DNA from: Pelagicoccus sp.
Lineage (GTDB): Bacteria > Verrucomicrobiota > Verrucomicrobiia > Opitutales > Opitutaceae
Assembly: GCA_028284635.1 (NCBI GenBank)
Contig: JANQRJ010000062.1
Coordinates: 1-40,175 of the forward strand
DNA length: 40,175 nucleotides
Reading direction: 5' to 3'
Position 1 is the first letter of the stretch, and every line of letters starts with the position of its first letter. A model generated the notes under the pieces. It did no database searches. It was given only the letters and a program-made list of their open reading frames with translations, and was not told the origin of the DNA. Shown here one piece after another: positions 5,242 through 36,464 of the stretch. The position numbers and the translations under genes are program-made.

Positions 5242-5336
5242 GTAGCGCGGAGCTTCAGCCCGCGGCCATAACTGTAGCCGCATTCGTAAGAACACAGAAA
5301 ACCACGATACGGACGCGGGCTGAAGCTCCGCGCTAC
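5242..5336. repeat. A-type REP pair A2, with a decayed C unit in its loop
   Basis: The left arm starts GTAGCGCGGAGCTTCAG at 5242 and the right arm ends ...CTCCGCGCTAC at 5336. In the loop a degenerate C-type unit is visible (GTAGCCGCATTCGTAAGAAC, from 5274). On the minus strand the terminal GTAG provides the TAG stop codon (5335-5333) of the octaheme cytochrome gene. Confidence 0.8.
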
Positions 5337-8563: not shown

Positions 8564-9190
8564 CTACGCTTTGGCGCCAGACTTCTCACATTTATCGCAA
8601 TCCTCGCAGCTTACGCAATCCTTGCATTCGCCTTGCGTGCAGCAACAAGCGGTTTTTTCGCCAGCTTCGTAAGTCGACGCAAGCATTCCACAGGTCAACA
8701 TGGAGGCTCCAAAATAGGGGTTGCGCAGGTCCTTGCTCGACTGCAGCCAGGCCGCGCCAGTGTTGTCGAAAGCCATCGGGCAGCGCATCTTGTAGACGGC
8801 CTGCGCATGACTGCCACCCTTCTCCATCTTGGCCACCAGGCCATCCGACCAGTCCTTGAATGCCAGCCGGGCAGCCGAGATGTCTTCAGCCTTTGCGATA
8901 GCCTGCACTCCGGCAAGCTCCTGAGAGCAGCAGTTGGCGCTCTTCGCCGAGCAAGACATCGATTCAACGGCGGCAAGCATTGCCTTCGCTCCAGCCCGAG
9001 CGGTTGCGAGATCGTCGTTCGCCAGAGCCACCTGCGTCTGGAAGTAGCTTTCGAGCTGGGCTCCCGAACAGGAGCCCTTTTTGGCGTAATCGTGGTCGGC
9101 ATTGGCGCCTGCGCCGCAGCCGCCACAGCGCGCGTGAAGATTGGATACAGCCGCAAAGGCTAGAATGAGTCCGACTATCTGTTTTTTCAT
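8564..9190 (-). CDS. Exported DUF3347-domain protein with Cys-rich tail
   Basis: The 208-residue protein has a signal peptide (cleavage after LHA near residue 20). The mature N-terminus then carries a CGGC pair. The body matches the DUF3347 pattern, ending in KMRCPMAF, AAWLQS and RNPYFGASMLTCG, the domain also found at the end of the CusB-like adaptor next door. The last 30 residues hold nine or so Cys (CCCTQGECKDC, CEDCDKC), an obvious site for soft metals. I infer a periplasmic Cu(I)/Ag(I) buffer or chaperone delivering metal to the pump. The start codon overlaps the cusA stop by 4 nt (ATGA), so it is translationally coupled to cusA. Confidence 0.87.
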   Translation of the reverse strand: MKKQIVGLILAFAAVSNLHARCGGCGAGANADHDYAKKGSCSGAQLESYFQTQVALANDDLATARAGAKAMLAAVESMSCSAKSANCCSQELAGVQAIAKAEDISAARLAFKDWSDGLVAKMEKGGSHAQAVYKMRCPMAFDNTGAAWLQSSKDLRNPYFGASMLTCGMLASTYEAGEKTACCCTQGECKDCVSCEDCDKCEKSGAKA

Positions 9191-12100
9191 AACGATGTTT
9201 CTAGGGGTTTGGTTTTAGACGTTCGTTTCAACTTAAGTTCCTCTACGAGACAGTAAAGCGTCGGCGCGAAGAAAACGGTGCAGACGGCGAAGAGCATGCC
9301 GCCGAATATGGGCAAGGCCATGGGCTGCATCACGTCCGATCCCCGTCCCGTCGAGGTCATGATTGGCAGCAGGGCCAAGAATGTAGTGGCGCTCGTCATC
9401 ATTGCAGGCCGGATGCGTCTGACGCCGGCCTCGACGACCGCGCGGCGGATTTCACTTGCATTGCTAGGACTTCGCTCGGCGAACACCTGCCGCAGGTAGG
9501 TGCAGATCAGTACTCCATCGTCCGTCGCAATGCCAAACAAGGCGAGAAAGCCGACCCATACCGCCACGCTGAGGTTGATCGTCTTGACCTGAAAGAGCTC
9601 CCGCATCTCGCTTCCGAGGAAACTGAAGTCCAAAAACCAGTCCTGCCCGTAAAGCCACAGCAGAACGAAACCGCCCGACCAGGCGAAAAACACGCCGGAA
9701 AAGACGATGAATGTCGTACCGACGCTACGAAACTGCAGATAGATCAAGATCCAGATCGCAATCAAGGCGACGGGCAAGACGAGACGCAGAGTCTTAGCCG
9801 CTCGCACCTGGTTCTGATAGGCGCCCGCAAATTCGTAGCGGACGCCTTGCGGCAAGACCAGTTCCCCGCTCGCCCGCTTCTCCCTCAGAACCTCAGCCAC
9901 CGTCTCGACGACCTCCACTTCCGCCAGACCGCTTTGCTTGTCGAACAAGACGTAGGAAAGCAGAAAGGAATTTTCGCTTCGGATCATCTGCGGCCCCCGC
10001 CGATAGGCAATGCTGGCAAGCTGCGTAATGGGAATTTGGGTACCGTCTGGAGACGCGATCAGAATCCGTTCCAATTCCTCGATCGAGTCTCGCCGTTCGC
10101 GCTGGTAGCGAACCCGAGCCGGATAGCGTTCGCGCCCCTCGATGGTCTGCATCACGCGCCGACCTCCGATAGCGACGTCGATCGCGTCCTGAGCCTGCCG
10201 CATCGAAATCCCGTAGCGAGCGATGGCAGTCCGATCGATCTCGATCTCCAAATAGGGCTTGCCGACCGTCCGGTCCGCGAAAACCGTCTCGCGGCGCAAA
10301 ACCGGTATCCGCTGCAAAGCCTCTTCAAGCCGACGTCCCGCCTCGTCCAGCGTTTCCAAGTCCGGCCCGAAGATCTTGAGCCCCATCGGGGACCGCAAGC
10401 CGCTCTGCAACATGATGCGACGCGTCTCGATAGGCTGCAGCTTGGGGGCCGAGGTTACCCCCGGCATTCTCGCCACCCGCTCTATTTCGTTCCAGATATC
10501 TTCCGCGCTACGAACCTCGTCACGCCACTGGCGAAAGGGACTACCGTGATCGTCGAGCACGAGCTCGCCATGCGCATCGCGTTCGAATTCCCCCAAAACC
10601 TCGTTCCAAGCAAAGCGTAGGATCCGCCCCTGATCGTCTTGCTTGTATTCGGATTTGTAGGTCACCACGGTTTCGATCATGGAGAGCGGAGCTGGATCGA
10701 GAGCGCTTTCCACCCGTCCAACCTTGCCAACCACATCCTCGACCTCAGGCAAGGCCTGGATCGCCTGATTTTGCAATGAGAGAACTTCGGTAGCAATGCC
10801 GATCGAGGCATGGGACATCACACTCGGCATGAACAGAAAAGCGCCTTCGTCCAGAGCCGGCATAAACTCGCGCCCAAGACCCGGAAAACGTTCCGCAGAC
10901 GCCTTCCAGAAATCCGTTCGTTTGATCGCATCCGGAGCGAAGGCGAAAACCTTGCTCCAGCCAAGCCAGACCAGGACGCCCGAAAAAAGGGCAGCAAAAC
11001 AGAAGGTCAAGAACATCGCCTTGCGTTCCAGTATCCAAGCCATGATTACGGAATACCAGCGCACCAGAAGCCGAGAGAGCAGCACGCCGCCGCCAAGAAG
11101 CAGCAGCGTGAAAACCACGTTCGACAGATCGGCATGCGGCCCCAACGGCTCCCAGTCCAAAGCGAGCAGAACGCCGAGAGCGATCGCCACGAGGATAGTT
11201 GCCACGCGCTTGAAAAAGCGGCCGCCAAACCTGTTTCCAAGGTAGGGCCGGACCGCCGGGCCGGCCGCATCGGCCTGTTTTTCTCCTGCAACGCGGCCGG
11301 CCCGGCGGTCCGGCCCTACCTTGGCGTTCTCACGAACGCGGCTACGGAAAAGCCTTCCGCTTCCAAAAAACGTATACGCCAGGGCAGGCACCACGGTCAG
11401 AGCAAGCAATATGCTGCCCAGGAGGGTGAAGGTCTTGGTGAAGGCCAGCGGTCGAAACAGCCGTCCCTCCTCAGCTACCATCGTAAAGACCGGCAGAAAG
11501 CTCACCACGGTCGTCAGCACTGCCGTCAGGATAGCCCCGCTCACCTCCGTACTGGCCTTGAAAATCACGCGACGCCGGGACTCCTCCTCGGGGGACTCCT
11601 CGAGCCGTCGCATGCAATTCTCCACCAGAACGACCGCTAGATCGACGATCGTGCCGATCGCGATGGCGATGCCAGACAAGGCGACAACATTGGCATCCAC
11701 TCCAAACAGGCTCATCGCCACAAAGGCGGTCAATACGGCAAGCGGCAACACGCTGGAAATAAGCGCCGCGCTTCGCAGTCGCATAACCATGAGCAGCACC
11801 ACAAATCCAGTAACCAAAATCTGGTGACGCAAAGCGATCTCCAACGTATCCAAGGTCTCCCCGATCAGGACGCTGCGATCGTAGAACGGCACGATCTTCA
11901 ATCGACTCACCCGACCGTCGGCCAGAGTCTTGCTCGGCAAGCCCGGCTCGATACGCTCGATCTGCTGCTTCACCCGCTGGATCGTCTCTAGAGGATTCGC
12001 TCCGAAACGGGCCACCACAACGCCGCCCACCGCCTCAACCCCACCCTTGTCCAGCACCCCACGGCGCGTAGCCGGACCAAGCTCTACCTCCGCCAATTGC

Positions 12101-12930
12101 TCCAGAGTCACCGGCACGCCATCCCGCTCCATCACAACCGCCTGGCGCAGATCCTCCAGGCTGCGGACGAAGCCTAAGCCCCGTATCAGATACTCGACCT
12201 GATTGATTTCGATAGTCTTGGCTCCGACCTCGTGGTTGCTGTCCCGCACAGCCTGGTATACCTGCTGTAGGGTAACGCCGAATACACGCAGAGCGTCAGG
12301 ATCCACATCCACTTGATACTCCTTGACGAAGCCGCCAACCGAGGCCACCTCCGACACGCCTTCCACCGCCTGCAGGGCATAGCGCGCCTGCCAATCCTGC
12401 ACGCTGCGCAGCTCCTCGAGATCCCAACCACCGGTGGGATTTCCTGCTTCGTCCCGACCTTCAATGGTATACCAGAACACCTGGCCCAAAGCCGTGGCAT
12501 CCGGACCCAGCCGAGGTTGCACGCCCGAGGGCAAGGCGTCCTGAGGCAGACTGGCGAGCTTTTCCAGAATCCGACTGCGCGACCAGTAGAACTCAACCGA
12601 GTCGTCGAAAATCACGTAGATCGAAGAGAAACCGAAACTCGAGCTGCTGCGAATCGACTTCACTCCGGGCAAGCCAAGCAGAGCGCTGGTCAGCGGGTAA
12701 GTGATCTGGTCTTCGACGTCCTGCGGCGAGTGGCCATCCCACTGCGTGAATACGATCTGCTGGTTGTCGCCCGTGTCCGGAATCGCATCGACCGCCACCG
12801 GCCGCCGCTCAATCCAGTCGAGCTTCCAGTCGAACGGAGCCACGACCAGACCCCACCCAACAAGCAGAAGAGCGAGCAAGCCGACGATCAGCCGGTTCTC
12901 CAGGCAGAACTTTACGACGCGGTCAGTCAT
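9187..12930 (-). CDS. cusA: CusA-like heavy-metal RND efflux pump (Cu(I)/Ag(I))
   Basis: This is a 1247-residue inner-membrane RND transporter that exports metal with proton influx. The TM4 segment GIAIAIGTIVDLAVVLVEN keeps the proton-relay Asp (D430) and Glu (E437). The three Met of the copper-binding triad of E. coli CusA are present at M701 (FLFMPSV), M751 (PLSMIET) and M840 (RRIMLQSG). This supports monovalent copper/silver rather than zinc or cobalt. It is about 200 residues longer than E. coli CusA. Part of this is a soluble insert near 757-805, and part is an in-frame REP-derived insertion at about residues 530-564 in the cytoplasmic stretch after TM6. cusB lies upstream, separated by a 204-bp nested hairpin. 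No outer-membrane factor gene is in the window. Confidence 0.95.
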   Translation of the reverse strand: MTDRVVKFCLENRLIVGLLALLLVGWGLVVAPFDWKLDWIERRPVAVDAIPDTGDNQQIVFTQWDGHSPQDVEDQITYPLTSALLGLPGVKSIRSSSSFGFSSIYVIFDDSVEFYWSRSRILEKLASLPQDALPSGVQPRLGPDATALGQVFWYTIEGRDEAGNPTGGWDLEELRSVQDWQARYALQAVEGVSEVASVGGFVKEYQVDVDPDALRVFGVTLQQVYQAVRDSNHEVGAKTIEINQVEYLIRGLGFVRSLEDLRQAVVMERDGVPVTLEQLAEVELGPATRRGVLDKGGVEAVGGVVVARFGANPLETIQRVKQQIERIEPGLPSKTLADGRVSRLKIVPFYDRSVLIGETLDTLEIALRHQILVTGFVVLLMVMRLRSAALISSVLPLAVLTAFVAMSLFGVDANVVALSGIAIAIGTIVDLAVVLVENCMRRLEESPEEESRRRVIFKASTEVSGAILTAVLTTVVSFLPVFTMVAEEGRLFRPLAFTKTFTLLGSILLALTVVPALAYTFFGSGRLFRSRVRENAKVGPDRRAGRVAGEKQADAAGPAVRPYLGNRFGGRFFKRVATILVAIALGVLLALDWEPLGPHADLSNVVFTLLLLGGGVLLSRLLVRWYSVIMAWILERKAMFLTFCFAALFSGVLVWLGWSKVFAFAPDAIKRTDFWKASAERFPGLGREFMPALDEGAFLFMPSVMSHASIGIATEVLSLQNQAIQALPEVEDVVGKVGRVESALDPAPLSMIETVVTYKSEYKQDDQGRILRFAWNEVLGEFERDAHGELVLDDHGSPFRQWRDEVRSAEDIWNEIERVARMPGVTSAPKLQPIETRRIMLQSGLRSPMGLKIFGPDLETLDEAGRRLEEALQRIPVLRRETVFADRTVGKPYLEIEIDRTAIARYGISMRQAQDAIDVAIGGRRVMQTIEGRERYPARVRYQRERRDSIEELERILIASPDGTQIPITQLASIAYRRGPQMIRSENSFLLSYVLFDKQSGLAEVEVVETVAEVLREKRASGELVLPQGVRYEFAGAYQNQVRAAKTLRLVLPVALIAIWILIYLQFRSVGTTFIVFSGVFFAWSGGFVLLWLYGQDWFLDFSFLGSEMRELFQVKTINLSVAVWVGFLALFGIATDDGVLICTYLRQVFAERSPSNASEIRRAVVEAGVRRIRPAMMTSATTFLALLPIMTSTGRGSDVMQPMALPIFGGMLFAVCTVFFAPTLYCLVEELKLKRTSKTKPLETSL
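11239..11345. repeat. D1+C3 REP composite inserted in frame inside cusA
   Basis: A perfect 30-bp inverted repeat (11239-11268 and 11293-11322) with a 24-nt loop forms a D-type pair (AAGGTAGGGCCGGACCGC...). It is followed at once by a C-type unit (CGTTCTCACGAACGCGGCTAC, ending 11345). The same D-then-C order, orientation and spacing occurs at 25795-25897. Here it is translated as part of cusA: the codons give RSRVRENA from C and KVGPDRRAGR ... GPAVRPYL from D, with no stop or frame change. Confidence 0.9.
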
Positions 12931-13134: not shown

Positions 13135-14916
13135 TCAGTACCTCCTCACCTCCGTACCGCAGCTCAGCATGCTTGCTCCGAAGTAGGGATTTCGCAGAGT
13201 CGCATCGCTCTGCAGCCAATCGGCTCCACGATCTGGATACACCATGGGGCAATTCATTCGCCACAGATCTTCTTCGAAAGCCGCCGGATCTCGCTCCACC
13301 GATTCGATCAGGGCTGCGCTTAGGATCTCGAAGTGCGGACGACGCATCTCTTCGATTCCATCAGCGGACTCTATGCCATGCAGACTGGAGTCCAATGGCG
13401 AGTCATGCCCCAGCAGCTCATGCAGGGCAACGGCGTTCTCTCGGGCCGCTGCGGCGTCATCCGCAGCGAGAGCGTCCTGAATTTTCAGATACAGCGGCAG
13501 GATGGAGCGAGCGGTTTCGAGATCGAGCTCGTCGAGGCTTTCGAGAGGCGAGGAGGACTGCATCATGCTCGACAAGCCTTGGATCTGCATGGCGCTATCG
13601 ATTTTGAAAGCGCCCCGAGAAACGACCTGCTCCCCTTCCTCAAGCCCCGAGACTACAGTGAAAACGTCGCCCGCCCGAGGTCCGATCACGATTTCTCGCC
13701 TTTCGTAGGCCGAACCGCTTTCCGATTTGGTCGCCACGTAGACCAAAGCTCGTTTGCCAGTGCGCAAAACAGCCGAAGTAGGCACCACTATCGGCGGCTC
13801 GGCGTCGGGATCGCTCACGTATCCAAGACTCTCGGCGGAAACCAGATCCATGCCACAAACGTCGCACTGGCCCGGCTCGTCCTTCACGATCTCGGGGTGC
13901 ATCGGGCTGATCCACTTGCCTGCATACTCGGGAGCGAATGCCAGACCGCCAGAGGCTAGACGAACGCTGGCCGTGGCGCGAACGAACATGCCCGGCTTCA
14001 GTCGTCCCGAATCATTGGATACATTGACACGGACGTGAGCCACTCGCGTCGCCATGTCCAGCTCCGGGGAAATGAAAGAGACCTTCCCCTCGAAGGTTTC
14101 TCCGGGATAGGCCTCTACGGTAAACGTGACGACCTGCCCCAATCGCAGCCATTTGAGATCGGACTCGTAGGCCTGCAGCATGAGCCAAAGCTGGGTCAGA
14201 TCGGCGATGCGGAACATGGTCGTGCCGGTATTCACATAGTCTCCTTCGCTGACCAGCTGGTCGATCACCACGCCTCCGACGGGAGCCTTGAGCTCGACCA
14301 GTTCGCTGGCTTCACCCGCCTGGATGATCTCTTCAACCTGCTCCTCAAGCAGATCCCACTGCAGGAGCTTCTGGCGGGCAGCCTGAACAAAGCGGCCCTC
14401 GGGATCGCGTTCGAAAGCGAGCAGGAGCTCCTTTTGGGCAGTGACCAGCTCTGGACTGTAGACGCGGGCAAGATGCTCTCCAAGGCCAACGCTGACGCCT
14501 TTGAAGTTGACGAACAGCTCGTCGATTCGAGCCGGAAAGCGAGCGGTCAGCGAACGGGTTCGTGTCTGGTCGAAGTCGATCGTCCCCGCCAGGCTGATAC
14601 GCTTTTCAGCTGGCCTCCTTTCGACAGCTACGGTTTCCACGCGAGCGCGCGCGGCGGCGGATTCGGAAAGCTCGAACTGCTGGAAGGAATCGGGATCGCC
14701 ACCCCCACCGCTCACGATCAGGTCCATGCCGCAAAGAGGACACTGACCGGACTCGGCAGAACGAATCTGCGGGTGCATGGAGCAGGTCCAAACCTGCTGT
14801 TCGGCAGCCCGAACGGCGGATGAGTCGGGCGGCGACCAAGGAGACGAACAACGTCCAAGCAGAAACGCCGCAACACTGACGAAGGCCGTAGCGATCCAAA
14901 TCTGGCTTTTCTTCAT
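13135..14916 (-). CDS. cusB: CusB-like periplasmic adaptor with two metal-binding domains and DUF3347
   Basis: This is a 593-residue membrane fusion protein linking the RND pump to the outer membrane. An N-terminal signal or anchor is followed by a heavy-metal-binding domain at about 42-66 (WTCSMHP ... CPLCGMDL). The barrel-sandwich/lipoyl and beta-barrel parts span about 105-325. Unusually, a second heavy-metal-binding domain is embedded at about 335-358 (WISPMHP ... CDVCGMDL). The C-terminus, about 465-590, is a DUF3347 domain ending RNPYFGASMLSCG. The same domain occurs in the separate protein at 8564-9190. The domain layout is that of copper/silver adaptors in Bacteroidetes-like and Verrucomicrobial genomes. 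The start ATG gives a normal basic-hydrophobic N-terminus. Confidence 0.94.
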   Translation of the reverse strand: MKKSQIWIATAFVSVAAFLLGRCSSPWSPPDSSAVRAAEQQVWTCSMHPQIRSAESGQCPLCGMDLIVSGGGGDPDSFQQFELSESAAARARVETVAVERRPAEKRISLAGTIDFDQTRTRSLTARFPARIDELFVNFKGVSVGLGEHLARVYSPELVTAQKELLLAFERDPEGRFVQAARQKLLQWDLLEEQVEEIIQAGEASELVELKAPVGGVVIDQLVSEGDYVNTGTTMFRIADLTQLWLMLQAYESDLKWLRLGQVVTFTVEAYPGETFEGKVSFISPELDMATRVAHVRVNVSNDSGRLKPGMFVRATASVRLASGGLAFAPEYAGKWISPMHPEIVKDEPGQCDVCGMDLVSAESLGYVSDPDAEPPIVVPTSAVLRTGKRALVYVATKSESGSAYERREIVIGPRAGDVFTVVSGLEEGEQVVSRGAFKIDSAMQIQGLSSMMQSSSPLESLDELDLETARSILPLYLKIQDALAADDAAAARENAVALHELLGHDSPLDSSLHGIESADGIEEMRRPHFEILSAALIESVERDPAAFEEDLWRMNCPMVYPDRGADWLQSDATLRNPYFGASMLSCGTEVRRY

Positions 14917-25782: not shown

Positions 25783-25794
25783 GAAGATTTCGAG

Positions 25795-25897
25795 GTAGGG
25801 ACGGACCGCCGGGCCGTCCGCTATGGAGGATCTTGCAATGCGGACGGCCTCCCGACAAGTCGGGATCCCTACCCCTCGTTCTCACGAACGCGGCTAC
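25795..25897. repeat. D2+C4 REP composite between lysA and hrpB
   Basis: A D-type pair (GTAGGGACGGACCGCCGGG from 25795, inverse ending CTAC at 25872) is followed by a C unit ending CGGCTAC at 25897. This is the same composite as inside cusA, though with less perfect arms. On the minus strand the GTAG of the C unit supplies the TAG stop codon of lysA. Confidence 0.85.
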
Positions 25898-29188: not shown

Positions 29189-29275
29189 TCCCGCGTTCTC
29201 ACGAACGCGGCTACAAAGTCACGGGTGTGGATAATATCGGTATGCTAGTGTAGCCGCGTTCGTGAGAACGCGGGA
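29189..29275. repeat. C-type REP pair C1
   Basis: Two C units, each a perfect 8-bp hairpin CCGCGTTC-TCAC-GAACGCGG, are placed in opposite directions with their GTAG/CTAC feet facing each other across 35 bp. The foot-to-foot order is the reverse of C2. It lies just upstream of rluD and after the deaminase stop. Confidence 0.85.
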
Positions 29276-36391: not shown

Positions 36392-36464
36392 GTAGCCGCG
36401 TTCGTGAGAACGCGGTTCCGCTAGCTGTCGGTCAAGGCCTCCGCGTTCTCACGAACGCGGCTAC
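36392..36464. repeat. C-type REP pair C2
   Basis: GTAGCCGCGTTCGTGAGAAC starts at 36392 and its inverse ends GCGGCTAC at 36464. Each unit is an 8-bp hairpin, the feet point outward, and 26 bp lie between them. The surrounding 36257-36536 has no gene. Confidence 0.88.

Follow-up and report, generated by a model that had tools for sequence, protein, structure and literature searches.

We identified a gene for a CusA-type RND metal efflux pump in the window (the whole 40,175-nt stretch of Pelagicoccus sp. DNA that was analysed), and a gene for a CusB-type membrane fusion protein upstream of it. The pump gene is a single uninterrupted frame that matches ACR_tran (PF00873, E 9.1e-178; AcrB/CusA family), and the cusB-type frame is also open. 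Within cusA lies an insert that is very probably a composite of GTAG-tagged repetitive extragenic palindromic (REP) sequences, namely an inverted pair of D-type units (a REPIN-like dimer) and an adjoining C-type unit. The sequence on either side scores as coding (34.0 and 36.1, hexamer score) and, given the open frame, cusA would be translated through the insert. The window has no Rfam match at gathering thresholds. The features are as follows (window positions):

9187..12930, minus strand: gene of a CusA-type RND metal efflux pump (1247 aa), with an open frame across the insert (PF00873; best solved match E. coli CusA)
13135..14916, minus strand: cusB-type membrane fusion protein gene, upstream of cusA (PF16576, PF19335)
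11237..11345, minus strand: whole probable REP composite (C unit and D dimer), 109 nt, read as cusA residues ~529-565
11237..11268, plus strand: D-type GTAG REP, one dimer arm, with GTAG at 11242-11245
11269..11292, no strand: spacer separating the D arms, 24 nt
11293..11324, minus strand: D-type GTAG REP, the other dimer arm, identical to the reverse complement of the first arm
11325..11345, minus strand: C-type GTAG REP GTAGCCGCGTTCGTGAGAACG, exact

In the minus-strand order of cusA, the C unit GTAGCCGCGTTCGTGAGAACG (11345-11325) precedes the D dimer. The D arms (11237-11268 and 11293-11324) are 32 nt each and 100% complementary across a 24-nt gap. The original prediction of a perfect inverted repeat was right as to perfection, but gave the length as 30 bp. 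These are the longest perfect arms among the 59 surveyed clusters with a D+D- pair, which suggests a recent event, and the insertion is probably recent. The peptide read from the composite (CusA residues ~529-565) is RSRVRENAKVGPDRRAGRVAGEKQADAAGPAVRPYLG. Comparison with homologues puts the addition at ~36 residues, in line with the ~35 anticipated, and the expected REP-like D and C composite in frame within cusA was borne out (11237-11345, in an open frame of 1247 aa). The borders of the insertion are approximate because the short loops of homologues are too diverged, and the insert is known from one genome of the species, in one assembly. The predicted RNA fold of the element and its flanks (136 nt) has an energy of -103.2 kcal/mol (mean of shuffled sequences -58.85, z -12.4) and includes the hairpin of the C unit.

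Repeat families in the genome

The genome (4.57 Mb in 104 contigs, 96.35% complete) contains many copies of both units. BLAST of the 109-nt element gave at least 73 matches (40 of 225 first-look candidates were scored). We identified 218 C-type sites at ≤3 mismatches and 27 sites of the D unit found in cusA, also at ≤3 mismatches; reversed control patterns gave 0 in both cases. With stem variants allowed in the D pattern, 200 sites were found at ≤2 mismatches and none with the control. When unit bodies were searched for without the tag, 147 of 148 for D and 133 of 138 for C had GTAG in front, in stretches preselected with GTAG-bearing patterns; in pattern-selected copies the invariance of GTAG is by construction and is no test of the tag. 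The base before GTAG in exact C copies is a pyrimidine in 122 and a purine in 8 (n=130), and this T or C may represent a target-site preference.

Across 13 distinct variants of the D stem, 99.1% of cells are paired over nine pairs, of which five are determined by the fixed letters of the search pattern and four vary on both sides. Nineteen cells are altered on both sides, and in this count together with the pairing fraction none of 500 shuffles was as high. The number of covarying pairs (101/500 shuffles) and of further pair types (355/500) is unremarkable.

Copies were surveyed in 150 stretches (785 kb, window included) around listed copies, with flanks scored by a hexamer model. The survey is partial, covering 156 C and 166 D units (≤3 mismatches), compared with 218 C (≤3) and 200 D (≤2) in the genome. 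Units in the 197 clusters are mainly arranged head-to-head: 59 clusters contain a D+D- pair and 50 a tagged C+C- pair, with five tagged C-C+ pairs. Both unit types occur together in eight clusters. The mean number of reading frames without stops is 4.0 of 6 over 184 clusters, after 13 of the 197 near stretch ends were dropped.

At ≤2 mismatches the C unit is present in 5 of 61 genomes of the family, with 196 sites in the genome studied here and at most nine in any other, and is thus nearly restricted to this genome. D-like matches were found in three congener genomes (G001, G004 and G005), with none in four others (G002, G003, G006 and G007). Thus, the D family predates both the species and the event in cusA, and only the cusA insertion is shown to be local.

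The insert in the CusA protein

The two closest CusA proteins, from same-genus genomes G002 and G004, share 73% identity with the pump over residues 1-528. The stretch that spans residues 516-592 in the protein studied here (P0001) has 77 residues, versus 41 in both of these homologues. This difference of 36 residues corresponds to 108 nt, compared with the element of ~109 nt. In tblastn, the match to the G002 and G004 proteins ends at residue 527/528 and restarts at 568, and a third same-genus CusA (G006) matches residues 1-522 and 570-772. In these alignments, the 109-nt segment in cusA is an insertion without counterpart in the closest homologues, as proposed at the outset, and the genome search likewise found the DNA to be repeated (218 C and 200 D sites; 6/197 surveyed clusters in genes).

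The inserted peptide did not resemble any part of 92 CusA homologues (best phmmer E 3.2), which are not all independent, as L138 (Pelagicoccus mobilis) is probably the same sequence as the G004 protein. No C or D units (≤3 mismatches) were found inside the matched gene of any of the 92; two D-like sites of L142 lie outside the gene. That the segment is a chance palindrome, or an ordinary part of CusA rather than a mobile element, is extremely improbable. The variable length of the loop among CusA proteins would be compatible with this idea, but the element has hundreds of genome copies, with none for the control, and is missing from the closest homologues.

Among 80 named homologues, the loop is 38 to 99 residues long. 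In a group of 12 relatives (L010-L021), nine have 86 residues in the same stretch, two have 41 and L021 has 62. The sequences suggest that the loop after TM6 accepts additions repeatedly. By eye, an additional hydrophobic segment is present in this loop in nine of the 12 relatives (L010-L018). A further 17 more distant RND relatives (L022-L038), in which 10 residues replace the 51 between P0001 residues 525 and 575, were excluded from the loop-length comparison.

An AlphaFold2 model of CusA residues 330-720 (35 sequences) has a mean pLDDT of 74.9. Foldseek ranked CusA first for this model, with a TM-score of 0.34, and given this score only helix borders and confidence were used. In the model, the TM6 helix runs to residue 522 and the membrane helix after it begins at 570, which places the insert in the stretch after TM6, as expected. 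Blocks of the insert have pLDDT values of 49-56, versus 81-91 in the adjacent helices, and contain short helices of low confidence. Thus, the insert is predicted to be a low-confidence linker after TM6, in a loop that we take to be cytoplasmic from known RND topology.

This location, between the two halves of the pump, and the very stable RNA hairpin could point to co-option of the insert, with the hairpin or the peptide tuning cusA translation, mRNA stability or regulation of the pump. We consider this improbable, as the segment was not found in the relatives compared, the same elements occur in unrelated proteins in differing reading frames, and there is no sign here of selection on the peptide. 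Less probable still is a specific role in which the mRNA hairpin would act as a built-in translation pause at the boundary of the pump halves, slowing the ribosome during insertion of the first six TM helices. If this were true, a selfish repeat would have been turned into part of membrane-protein biogenesis.

REP clusters inside and outside genes

The placement of the 197 clusters was judged from a custom hexamer score and not from gene annotation. At least one flank has no clear coding signal in 109 clusters, and 19 are too close to a stretch end. The remainder lie between same-strand (44), convergent (21) or divergent (4) flanks. Of the 197, six clusters are in frame inside genes (7 were flagged, and the one at window position 25795 was dropped). 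Excluded from this count are 27 clusters in a long open frame with a one-sided coding signal, a few of which are borderline (e.g., C62:13624, with scores of 5.5 and 8.9). The six intragenic cases are:

cusA (P0001): C unit and D dimer
TPR protein (P0002): one C unit, L056:2501-2521, which reads VLTNAAT
FabA/acyltransferase protein (P0004): D dimer
P0005 (C52): single D unit, up to 3 mismatches
RecB (P0006): D-type REP
RecC (P0007): D dimer

The weakest of the six is P0005, for which the right flank scores 8.8, the TPR match is under the Pfam cut-off and the description as a membrane protein was made by eye. The neighbouring recC and recB genes both contain D-type REPs in frame (L108:4766-4838, at G000:C64:82874, and L245:2501-2527, at G000:C64:78680). 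Homologue comparison of the intragenic cases covered cusA, RecC and RecB. The RecC segment is absent in seven of seven congeners, which match to residue 80 and then from residue 126 or 127, and this case is cleaner than that of cusA. RecB aligns poorly around the insert, and the frame obtained from congener L282 was just 100 residues long, which makes RecB a weaker case than RecC.

The hexamer score classes ~84% of the window as coding, and at least 74% of the bases surveyed overall. Six clusters of 197 in genes is thus far fewer than random placement would give. The copies are many, dispersed and mostly intergenic (218 C and 200 D sites; 6/197 in genes), as is characteristic of REPs. The expectation that REPs are mostly extragenic holds here, and agrees with the statement, in the text available for PMC12306157, that they seldom overlap coding regions.

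A second composite occurs in the window:

25795..25897, minus strand: degenerate D dimer and C unit, between the HrpB-type helicase and PLP decarboxylase genes

BLAST places this composite at 25793-25897. It was proposed to be the same composite as in cusA, located outside genes; it is present, but with a degenerate D dimer, and the decarboxylase gene takes its TAG stop (25894-25896) from the GTAG of the C unit. Thus, it is not strictly extragenic. Its flagging as an intragenic cluster came via an antisense frame of 155 codons alone (scores 8.2 and 13.1), and real genes end and start there. The window contains other C units or dimers, at 5274-5294, 29194-29270 and 36392-36464, and none was flagged inside a coding frame.

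The scarcity of clusters in genes (6/197, despite a window that is ~84% coding) implies that most gene insertions seem to be removed. The cusA insert could be in the same position, as a young deleterious allele that inactivated or weakened the pump and is heading for loss; the longest perfect arms of the 59 D dimers suggest youth, and the RNA hairpin is extreme. This is unlikely, if somewhat less so than co-option, as the 1247-codon frame is open, its flanks score as coding (34.0 and 36.1), the cusB-type frame upstream is open, and the hydrophobic segment in the same loop of nine of 12 relatives indicates that the site tolerates additions.

Origin of the insertion and comparison with known systems

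We favor, with considerable confidence, an explanation in which a REP composite inserted into cusA on the branch leading to this species, once that branch had separated from the congeners compared. The composite would have survived because the added length is divisible by three (108 nt relative to the short loops; by arithmetic, 87 and 21 nt each keep the frame), because the reading frame used bypasses the TAG within GTAG, and because the target, the loop joining TM6 to the membrane helix that follows, varies in length in this family. Translation of the composite would add ~36 residues as a linker on the cytoplasmic side, and the pump is most likely still functional. The insertion is probably tolerated rather than functional, with neutrality as the presumed state. 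The composite most likely arrived by movement involving a RAYT-type transposase, as hypothesised for GTAG REPs in the portion of PMC3733652 consulted. We did not identify a RAYT flanked by C or D REPs: there are two PF01797 genes, with no C (≤5 mismatches) or D (≤8 mismatches) units in 6 kb around either, in a genome that is 96.35% complete in 104 contigs. One RAYT (PF01797) frame, L136:3018-3872, has the peptide RSAELQPA close to both ends, and this sequence may mark another repeat family that flanks the RAYT.

The cusA gene provides a clean example of a coding sequence that contains a REP dimer, which is absent from homologues in the same genus. Such cases allow measurement of the rate at which REP insertions in genes are tolerated (6/197 here) and of the protein sites that accept them.

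REPINs have reportedly been described in Pseudomonas fluorescens. The likeness lies in an inverted REP pair that forms a single hairpin and has many copies per genome, and the cusA D dimer is such a pair, with 32-nt arms and a short spacer of 24 nt. Unlike REPINs, the dimer is in frame within a gene, and no RAYT was found beside the REPs of this genome.

According to the original prediction, Rickettsia is the main source of known in-frame palindromes. This is out of date, as a catalogue of intragenic GTAG REPs has been available since 2013 (Di Nocera et al., 2013; PMC3733652), and the cusA case is thus less surprising than was held. According to the sections of that paper available, several species have intragenic GTAG REPs, with the largest count in the verrucomicrobium Opitutus terrae; their targets include recBCD (recB is named) and uvrA genes; and dimers or grouped repeats in ORFs encode 20 to 30 aa, with some clusters encoding 43 to 82. 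Its main text, as far as available, makes no mention of efflux or transporter targets. Judged by title, it was the only one among the papers listed that deals with intragenic REPs, and in the literature searched we found none that joins Pelagicoccus with repetitive extragenic palindromic sequences. The cusA composite has the anatomy of GTAG-tagged REPs as described there. Features in common, in the text available, are the GTAG end, the short stem, grouped and mostly intergenic units, the head-to-head arrangement as the commonest dimer, TAG used as a stop codon, some copies in ORFs, and recBCD targets. The species differ, and the likeness is one of described features.

Palindromic elements of Rickettsia (RPE; Ogata et al., 2000, 2002, via the available text of PMC3733652 and PMC5896051) are also palindromic repeats in frame in unrelated proteins, in another phylum and likened here by description. 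In Coxiella, QMITEs are miniature inverted repeats, some in the frame of ORFs, and their stem is discussed as a possible RNase III site (PMC5896051, in part). They share in-frame inverted repeats and a stable stem with the cusA composite, again by description, and are MITEs of another phylum. In nematomorph mitochondria, perfect inverted repeats occur in genes and both arms encode conserved protein (PMC6649704, in part), whereas the cusA palindrome is an added segment. The cusA case extends the known picture without altering it; its kind has already been described, including in a related bacterium.
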